From Ceratobasidium sp. AG-K (Eukaryota; Basidiomycota; Agaricomycetes; Cantharellales; Ceratobasidiaceae), in NCBI GenBank assembly GCA_037039685.1, contig JAWNGF010000002.1, positions 6,717,088-6,781,087 on the forward strand: a stretch of 64,000 nt of DNA, written 5' to 3'. Position numbers and translations under genes: made by a program. Below the pieces are notes generated by a model, which was not told the DNA's origin, made no database searches, and saw only the letters and a program-made list of their open reading frames with translations. Every line of letters starts with the position of its first letter. The first letter of the stretch is position 1. Positions 31,950 through 37,778 of this stretch are shown one piece after another.

Positions 31950-31958
31950 GGTCGTTCA
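31950..31958. repeat. 9-bp target-site duplication, left
   Basis: GGTCGTTCA lies immediately outside the left terminal inverted repeat. The same nine bases in the same orientation follow the right repeat at 37770-37778. Confidence 0.92.
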
Positions 31959-32165
31959 TAGACTCCTTCCCAGACCTTGAGCACGTGCCGCTCAGGGAAA
32001 ATACAGGGTTCTTTTCGCACTGGCTGCGTGCTCGAAGGACTGGCCCCATTCTCCCTGTTTGCATGTATGTACCAGGTTCGCCACTGATGAAGTCGTTCTC
32101 GCTGTTACTCCCTGTGTCACTTTTTCGCATCGCACGTGATCCTACCGGTCATATTCCTGTCACTC
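31959..32165 (+). repeat. Left terminal inverted repeat (207 bp)
   Basis: Begins TAGACTCCTTCC and ends CCTGTCACTC. Its reverse complement is found at 37563-37769. It contains CACGTG motifs and a pyrimidine-rich inner end, and sits directly upstream of the helicase start codon, so it probably contains that gene's promoter. Confidence 0.95.
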
Positions 32166-32215
32166 GCTTGTATCTATCCAACGACTTTCTTTATTCTTAC
32201 CGTCTAACGTCTAAT

Positions 32216-34951
32216 ATGGGGTCTGTTACCCCTGTTTCTTCACCTGAAATCACCTTGAAAACGCTCTCAACTCTCGGTGTTACACCATGCAAGTTCCAGA
32301 CTCAAGTCTGCGATCTTCAGCTTCAAGGTCGCCACTGCTTTTTGATCTCCCCGACCGGTTCAGGGAAGTCGCTCTCGTTTTTGATGCCATTTATCTGGCA
32401 GAGGACAGGTGTATGCATTCTAATTTCGCCTCTTCAATTACTTGGCAACCAGCACGCTACACATCCTTGGATCGAAAAGCTTGGTATCCGGGCAATCAAC
32501 CTGACGGCTGAGACAACATCTGACAGTTTATTTAAGGTATGTATGTCCAGAAATTTCCGCTCTACACAAATTAACCACAGTCCCATTGTTTATTGCAGGA
32601 TATTGCAGCAGGAAAATACCACCTAGTTGTGGCGTCCCCCGAATACGTCGAGCAGGACTCACGATTCCGGAAATATCTGTGGGACTCGGCGAGCTTTCGA
32701 AAGCAGGTGACACGCATTGTATTTGACGAGGCCCATTGTGTTATGGACTGGGGAGGATTCCGACCAGCATACAGGCGCCTTCGGTTTCTCCGCCCTCTTC
32801 TCCCCGACGCAACCTTCCTTGCTCTTTCCGCCACACTCACTCCGACTATGGTTGCTGAACTTAAATCCCTACTTGGGCTATACGATGTCAAGGTCATTCG
32901 CCGCTCAAACGATCGACTCAATGTTGCCCCTGTCGTCAAACCTATGAAGTATACACTTCAATCCCTCCATGACCTCGCATTTCTGATTCCCCTTGGTGTT
33001 GATCTCACCGTGTGTCGCCCGCCAAAGTTCATGCTGTTTGTACAAAGCAAAAAAATGTGCCAACGGGCTGGGCACTTCCTCCGGGCACGATTGCCACCAG
33101 ATGATCAAGACCGTGTGCTTTGGGTTCATTCGGAAATGACGAGTGGCTTCAACCAACGCACAATGGAAAAACTTCGAAACAGTGAGATCTACGGGGTAGT
33201 CTGCACAGACGTGGCAGGAATGGTAAGTTGTTTGCTTACATTGACTTGCTTCGAGTAGAATAATCTACATTTGACAGGGAATTGATATTCCCGATGTGGT
33301 TTTATCTGTACAATACCAGGTACCAGACAAACATTGTACACATTACCAGCGTTCGGGGCGTTCGGGGCGCGATCAGCAGCGATGGGCGTATTCAATACTT
33401 CTGGCCGAGAAAAAGTACCTTGACAAGACCAAGCAAATGCAGTGGGAGCAGGCCAGAAAGGCACAAGAAACGAAACAGAAGAAGAAGCGGAAGGCCGAGG
33501 CCACACTTGAGTCGCCCAAGCCATCTCAATCACCCCGTGTCAACCTGCCAACTGGTTTGGCTCAGGCCAGTGATGTTACTGTCAAGCTGGAAGAGGACGT
33601 TGAGAGCAAACCTGTCCCTGTGATCCTAGCTCCCGTTACACCTAAACAAAGCCAGAAAAGGCTTGACATTGAACCAGTCATGGATCAGTACATTAATGCG
33701 CACTCTCGTGGGGGGGCATCGGCAACAGGAGATGCCCAACCAAGTTGTCGCCGCTCAGCTGGGAACAGCTTCTTTGGGAATCCATCAGTTCCTAAAGGTG
33801 TGTGCTTCTTTACATTCGTGATTGGATTGATCTTCACCACCACTCCAGTGGGCGACGACAACTATTGCTGTACACGTTGCTGTCCTCCAACACCCCCTCC
33901 CGACAGGTGCTGCGACATGTGCAACCCTCTCCTTGCTGACACTTTAACAGGGTGTGTTTTAAAAGAACCCCCACCATCAACCAACCGAGCCCCAGCACAG
34001 TCAAAAATACCCGCCAACAAAGCTAGTGACTGGACAGATGCTGACGTTGGGCTAAAAGAGGCACTCTGCTTTTGGCGGGATCAAGCCGCTGAGGCACGAT
34101 GGGGTCCAAATCACCTGGTTGGGGGACTGGGGATCCTCAGCAATCAGCAAGTCAAGCGTATTATTGAACTTGCCCGACTCCAAATTGTTCCCACACTCTC
34201 CGACTTCACAAAAGAGTTGAAATGGCTCTACATGCCTGTCTATGGTGCCGAAGTGCTCTCGATTGTTCACAGTTCCCACCCTCCTCGCAAGCCCCAGCCT
34301 CCAACCATTCCCCACAACCCCATCTCAATAATCACCCAAGCAGATGGAGTTCCAGGCAATGTCCTAGTTAAGACTCCAAAGCCACCGGTTTGTACCAGCT
34401 GCTTCCAGGCTGGTCATATCCGTAAGTGTGTCCCTATCAATTTACTAATGGTTGGCGTTGATTCCTGTTTCCCCTGCTGTAAAGGCTCAAGCCTCTCGTG
34501 CCCAAATAAAATTGCCAGACTGGCTCGTGGATCGAGTGATGATATTGGTCAAATAGCCTGTACAACACCATACCCAAAAGGCCTCAATCCATTGCCCACT
34601 TCAACGTTCTGGACACCTGTCCATCCTCCAGCCACCACAAGTAATCCACATCTTTCCTCATCGCTCAACTATAGTCGCAGTCCAACAAACCCACCAGTCC
34701 CTACCACGTATCATTATCAATATTTTGATCATGCTAATACATTGCCCGCAGCCCATGTTTCCCCTGCCTACTCATCTACAGATAGGTCCCACTGCTCTGG
34801 CCGTGCGTCCTCCTCTGCCGCACCACCTTTTGCTTCTTCCTCCGCACCATCTTCAACACTAAACCACAATTTGCCAGGCATATCCAGTGCTGCATTCATA
34901 CCTGCAACAAACGCATTGACGGGGGTGGAATTGAGGGGTCGCCCAGGATGA
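32216..34951 (+). CDS. RecQ-like superfamily 2 DNA helicase of the TIR element
   Basis: Exons 32216-32536, 32599-33222 and 33278-34951 give 872 residues. The start MGSVTPVSSPEITLK is the first ATG after the left TIR. Helicase motifs in order: SPTGSGKSLSF (Walker A), VFDEAHCVMDWG (DEAH box with the RecQ aromatic-loop position), LALSATLTP (motif III), then GIDIPDVV and QRSGRSGRDQ (motif VI). The long C-terminal part is Lys/Pro/Ser-rich with Cys clusters (CCTRCCPP, CTSCFQAGH). Two further GT-AG introns that keep the frame may exist inside it (33798-33848 and 34422-34484); splicing them would give about 834 residues and tidier Cys motifs. Predicted role: 3'-5' DNA unwinding during movement of the element (inference). 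The last 184 bases overlap the end of the opposite gene. Confidence 0.88.
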
Positions 34952-37537: not shown

Positions 37538-37562
37538 TTTTTTCGTGGCGCGGAGCGTGCAA

Positions 37563-37769
37563 GAGTGACAGGAATATGACCGGTAGGATCACGTGCGATG
37601 CGAAAAAGTGACACAGGGAGTAACAGCGAGAACGACTTCATCAGTGGCGAACCTGGTACATACATGCAAACAGGGAGAATGGGGCCAGTCCTTCGAGCAC
37701 GCAGCCAGTGCGAAAAGAACCCTGTATTTTCCCTGAGCGGCACGTGCTCAAGGTCTGGGAAGGAGTCTA
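37563..37769 (-). repeat. Right terminal inverted repeat (207 bp)
   Basis: Reverse complement of 31959-32165. It lies directly upstream of the DUF6589 start codon (37537) and presumably drives that gene with the same promoter sequence that the left copy gives the helicase. Confidence 0.95.
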
Positions 37770-37778
37770 GGTCGTTCA
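37770..37778. repeat. 9-bp target-site duplication, right
   Basis: GGTCGTTCA immediately follows the right TIR end (GGAGTCTA), matching 31950-31958. The next bases (TAGTTAATGG) continue the host sequence. Confidence 0.92.

Follow-up and report, generated by a model that had tools for sequence, protein, structure and literature searches.

What are two convergent genes doing between long, perfect inverted repeats in the genome of Ceratobasidium sp. AG-K? The locus lies in a 64,000-nucleotide stretch of contig JAWNGF010000002.1 (hereafter the window), and its genes encode a predicted RecQ-like helicase and a protein of the family DUF6589 (PF20231), a pairing that a first-pass annotation had recognized from the letters alone and that Pfam matched through DEAD, Helicase_C and DUF6589. 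We conclude that this 5811-bp unit (target-site duplications not counted) is a mobile element and, with a probability of roughly 0.8, an autonomous DNA transposon of the DDE type that belongs to AcademH, the helicase-bearing Academ lineage, with the DUF6589 protein as its transposase. A repeat search of the window showed that the two arms of its terminal inverted repeats (TIRs) are complementary at 207 of 207 nucleotides, with GGTCGTTCA duplicated on both sides, exactly as first annotated. In 50 first-order Markov controls for the same 7.8 kb, the longest perfect inverted repeats reached 11 to 16 nt, compared to the 207 nt observed. Both genes, earlier described as intact and multi-exon, are uninterrupted predicted frames (three exons for 872 aa and two exons for 903 aa); introns were called from GT/AG borders and reading frame, and the splice sites are predictions. 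Feature coordinates are collected in Table 1.

Concerning mobility, the insertion site is informative. The left flank (400 bp) has a single other match in the genome, at C2:6202761-6203165 (97%), and the surrounding locus (L066, C2:6202500-6204300) is an empty site, colinear with the flanks, with a single GGTCGTTCATAG and no element. Aligned with the joined flanks carrying one 9-bp copy, it presents 98.4% identity over 1588 columns. Because the empty site holds one copy of the 9 bp without the element, these bases were duplicated upon insertion. The TAG at 37779-37781, which adjoins the right duplication, has the same sequence as the TIR tip (31959-31961), and it is pre-existing target sequence, since it is present in the empty site. 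The right flank (37779-45000) is also repeated, at C2:6203166-6210291, as ~7 kb of 99% identity in two pieces on the same contig, half a megabase away. This repeat either arose by true segmental duplication or represents a dikaryon's second haplotype placed on the same contig, and C2:6202500-6204300 counts as an empty site under either origin. Given this empty site and a sister element (C7:504057-522034) that has a 9-bp duplication and an empty site of its own, the window element is a mobile unit, as had been proposed. Its insertion is apparently recent, in agreement with the earlier annotation, with the identical TIRs and with the 1-2% divergence between the flank copies.

Further copies with duplications of their own, non-autonomous derivatives and two empty sites, all envisaged by the first-pass annotation, were found within the same genome. 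Both ends were located for seven elements (the C11 pair counted once), and their duplications are an exact 9 bp in four, 9 bp matching at 8/9 bases in one and 8 bp in one, with none found in the last. The sister element was recovered via protein searches and has TIRs of 237 nt (97.9%), the 9-bp duplication CACCTCGAC and an empty site at C2:2780500-2781300 (97% over 752 columns). Its helicase pieces are separated by a 12.5-kb gap that looks like a nested insertion. Used as a genome query, its TIR returned only its own two ends; in a multiple alignment read by eye it aligns over ~85 bp with the TIRs of the window element and of the element at C7:1182613-1184935 (L013:3614-5936). The latter, the only other locus found in the genome with the window TIR, is non-autonomous and has TIRs of ~303 nt (98%) and the 9-bp duplication GTCTCGACC. 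The outer 90 bp of its TIR are 91% identical to those of the window element and the remainder is not alike; judged from its sequence, it combines the ends of one element with the interior of a different repeat. A search for its empty site with the left flank gave 22 matches, none of which, apart from itself, extended past base 120 of 300. A separate repeat at C3:2030994 and C2:1335255 (99.7% alike, 3104 bp) matches its inner TIR, from base 91, and the adjoining interior. With the same TIR a 66-bp mini-element was detected at C2:3355060-3355125 (L059:1493-1558), which holds little beyond two TIR tips and is flanked by AGCCAGAAC/AGCTAGAAC (9 bp, one base differing). The existence of derivatives with only shared ends suggests that they were moved in trans.

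More distant elements carry the tips TTGCCTRGAAC or TTGCCTGGACC. One of them, at C11:545398-551470, has the 9-bp duplication GCTAATTCC and is itself duplicated with its flanks, in inverted orientation, at C11:283260-303799; this inverted duplication (L016, L017, L052; C11:542200-552100 and C11:282000-307000) presents 99.4% identity. One C11 copy, in which the helicase is ~17 kb from the transposase part, probably carries a large extra insertion. Another distant element, at C17:307884-313966, has an 8-bp duplication (CTCATGCT), and a partial copy of this type ends at C7:1225163. The C1 element (L050) has TIRs of 67 nt (85%), beside which no target-site duplication was found. Genome-wide, the TIR-tip pattern gave 40 matches, against 11 for the same pattern read backwards as a control. 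These comprise the 8 ends of four elements, 24 occurrences of CAGACTCCATCCC, which have no close inverted partners by eye and are probably an unrelated repeat family, and 8 other single matches, in the four inspected of which no second tip was found within 501 bp.

The pairing of helicase and DUF6589 genes also recurs as a unit. A PF20231 search of the 53.6-Mb genome gave 10 matches at nine loci, a lower bound, and at six of these nine (the window, C7:519k, C17, both C11 copies and C1) a convergent helicase match lies beside DUF6589 on the same contig. None is listed beside it at C7:1222k, a locus without one end, or at C8:738k and C7:168k, which are partial DUF6589 matches. Outside this genome the pair has adjoining locus tags, by the tags only, in Ceratobasidium sp. 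423 (FRC11_004919/004920) and C. theobromae (CTheo_1347/1348), while in Paramarasmius palmivorus a single 1568-aa protein holds both, DUF6589 first. In the window the two tails overlap at 34768-34951.

Table 1. Positions in the window of the element's termini, genes and proposed active-site codons
Feature	Position	Strand	Basis
Left target-site duplication, GGTCGTTCA	31950-31958	.	Sequence; single copy in empty site L066
Left TIR, 207 nt, tip TAGACTCCTTCCCAG	31959-32165	+	100% complementary to right repeat
RecQ-like SF2 helicase gene, predicted, 872 aa	exons 32216-32536, 32599-33222, 33278-34951 (stop included)	+	Gene model, ORF end, DEAD and Helicase_C
DUF6589 transposase gene, predicted, 903 aa	exons 37537-36776, 36717-34768 (stop included)	-	Gene model, PF20231
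Codon of D336, proposed first catalytic Asp	36472-36474	-	29/29 rows with a letter; within model strand 77-88 (exon position 82)
Codon of D513, proposed second catalytic Asp	35941-35943	-	30/30 rows; just past model strand 254-258 (exon position 259)
Codon of H548, GxxH motif between second Asp and Glu	35836-35838	-	H in 30/30, G in 29/30 rows
Codon of E767, proposed catalytic Glu	35179-35181	-	28/28 rows with a letter; within model helix 508-523 (exon position 513)
Right TIR, 207 nt	37563-37769	-	100% complementary to left repeat
Right target-site duplication, GGTCGTTCA, then target TAG	37770-37778	.	Sequence; empty site

The 903-aa protein is a member of PF20231, with the domain at residues 417-819 (E-value = 1.5e-86, 291 bits, cut-off 27), and its homologue P0001 presents 56% identity over 100% of the query, which supports the two-exon model. 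Homologues were found in Ceratobasidium, Rhizoctonia solani and ten further mushroom genera. Pfam lists DUF6589 as a family of unknown function, and we propose here that it is a DDE transposase. Two structure models of DUF6589 proteins match DDE transposase folds, the best being hAT (Hermes) and P element at 10-12% identity, in a fold-comparison tool that carries a warning on helical models. Together with the alignment, these models predict a DDE fold with an invariant D, D, E, in which D336, D513 and E767 would be the catalytic acids and by which the protein would cut and join DNA. Between the second aspartate and the glutamate, the first position of the GxxH motif is replaced by R in a single aligned row. 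Sequence searches gave no match to the DUF6589 profile among PDB sequences up to an E-value of 1 and no NCBIfam model matching P0001. Apart from these, the DUF6589 protein P0161 of Pisolithus tinctorius also lists PF26138 and may be a gene-prediction fusion.

The 872-aa helicase contains DEAD at residues 26-190 (E-value = 3e-23) and Helicase_C at 247-347 (E-value = 3.9e-16). Its best homologue is P0036 from R. solani (46% identity, 100% coverage), and among the best 120 of 337 matches RecQ and BLM proteins follow the close fungal relatives. P0036 matches 54 distinct solved sequences at E-value <= 1e-5, with WRN, RecQ1 and another DNA helicase at the top (best 2e-23), and it matches the recQ_fam model with an E-value of 2.6e-43, yet under the curated cut-off of 219.8 bits. 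Pfam found none of the RQC, zinc or HRDC domains of cellular RecQ in the window protein. Its C-terminal tail contains cysteine residues, a feature also seen by eye in P0035, and an extra in-frame intron of 51 nt is possible there (33798-33848). A subtelomeric fungal RecQ gene, as treated in the available part of PMC4522978, was set aside as the gene is enclosed by TIRs and no telomere repeat was found in the final 1000 bases of the window.

Which lineage such an element belongs to is the second question. AcademH was reportedly described by Kojima in 2020 (Mobile DNA 11:15), and an XPG nuclease is the partner of the AcademX transposase. A DUF6589-XPG fusion, sought as a link to Academ, was absent from the Pfam lists of 11 proteins including the query P0035 (covering proteins 0.55 to 1.75 times the query length), and none of the proteins found here bears an Academ name. 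In literature excerpts, target-site duplications are given as 9 or 10 bp for AcademH and 3 or 4 bp for AcademX, tied to helicase versus nuclease (PMC10045372); DEAD and Helicase_C domains are assigned to AcademH, KolobokH or Helitron, and AcademH is described as low-copy in Basidiomycota, Ascomycota and Mucoromycota (PMC10799480); Academ is counted among the DDD/E superfamilies (PMC9587614). The window element resembles this description in its 9-bp duplication, seen with an empty site here and at C7:504057, in encoding a helicase with DEAD and Helicase_C domains, in a DDD/E transposase as predicted from fold match and invariant residues, and in its low copy number (at least nine DUF6589 loci); one sister element differs with its 8-bp duplication. 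Since helicase, DDE transposase, 9-bp duplications, fungal host and low copy number all agree, AcademH is favored, and membership is probable on these described features. An undescribed transposon group, as the first-pass annotation suggested, is probably not at hand, in view of the agreement with those excerpted features.

Two readings would place the element outside AcademH. The first, which we consider unlikely, is a DDE superfamily of its own or at least a lineage separate from AcademH, whose GxxH transposase would belong to the hAT/P fold group and whose insertions would favor N9-YAG, with YAG repeating the tip of the TIR. At three of four subgroup sites the triplet adjoining one duplication equals the element's own TIR tip, namely in the window (TAG), at C7:504057 (CAG) and at C2:3355060 (TAG), the exception being C7:1182613 (CTG). 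At the window and C7:504057 both empty sites have the tip-like triplet already in the target. A target preference for such a triplet is possible, in a tally where either side of a site could count and four sites are too few for a rule. If true, the N9-YAG preference would suggest that the terminal trinucleotide of the element is paired with or recognized when a target is chosen. The fold group itself offers a comparison: Hermes and P element have 8-bp duplications and neither is known to have a helicase gene. The second reading, a superfamily separate from Academ that acquired its RecQ-like helicase independently, appears improbable. It would fit a family without assigned function in Pfam, whose name DUF6589 a word search did not find in the literature covered, and an Academ likeness drawn from description instead of direct comparison; against it, duplication length, the presence of a helicase, the host group and the low number of copies agree with the AcademH reports as excerpted.

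The other suggestion of the first-pass annotation, a Mutator-like element (MULE) whose accessory machinery is unusual, is very improbable. MuDR combines 9-bp duplications, TIRs of ~200 bp and two convergent genes, and the resemblance to the window element is evident in all three. However, the second gene here is a helicase, DUF6589 is the sole Pfam match (E-value <= 0.01) in 35 of 35 aligned members, with no MULE transposase domain, and in the fold comparison hAT and P match best. Moreover, the motif is GxxH and not the C/DxxH reported for MuDR in the available part of PMC9587614, and Mutator-like identity was rejected. The same source, as far as excerpted, describes KolobokH as found only in fungi and as combining a DDE transposase with a RecQ helicase, to which P0035, with DUF6589 followed by a helicase within one protein, could be likened. 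The same excerpt gives a 4-bp TTAA duplication for Kolobok and a C/DxxH motif, whereas both empty-site loci show non-TTAA duplications of 9 bp and the motif here is GxxH; KolobokH was thus rejected as a remote candidate. Finally, a static host gene pair or an assembly artefact mimicking a transposon is hardly credible and was rejected, since the large near-identical duplications of this assembly (the empty-site flank, 99% over 7 kb, and the C11 element with flanks) stand against two empty sites, independent elements with differing duplications, a non-autonomous derivative and a mini-element.

For the AcademH transposon we propose the following mechanism. The DUF6589 transposase, in which a helical insertion would interrupt an RNase H-like DDE core as in Hermes and P element, would bind the TIR ends and then cleave. 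Strand transfer into the target by D336/D513/E767, with cuts 9 bp apart, would give the 9-bp duplication, and the host would carry out repair after insertion. The element's own helicase would have a role in transposition, in which it may unwind the ends, the joined intermediates or the donor gap. Precise insertion at defined tips with a 9-bp duplication is observed here and in the sister element, and other copies bear their own duplications. We infer that movement is by cut-and-paste; a copying mode may be the alternative.

Intact predicted frames, identical TIRs and an empty site make the window element a well-anchored and apparently autonomous representative of a lineage that has rarely been described. 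The function proposed for PF20231 means that genes annotated as hypothetical could be recognized as transposases, and the helicase and DUF6589 pair offers a test case for the reason why elements carry a RecQ-like helicase of their own.
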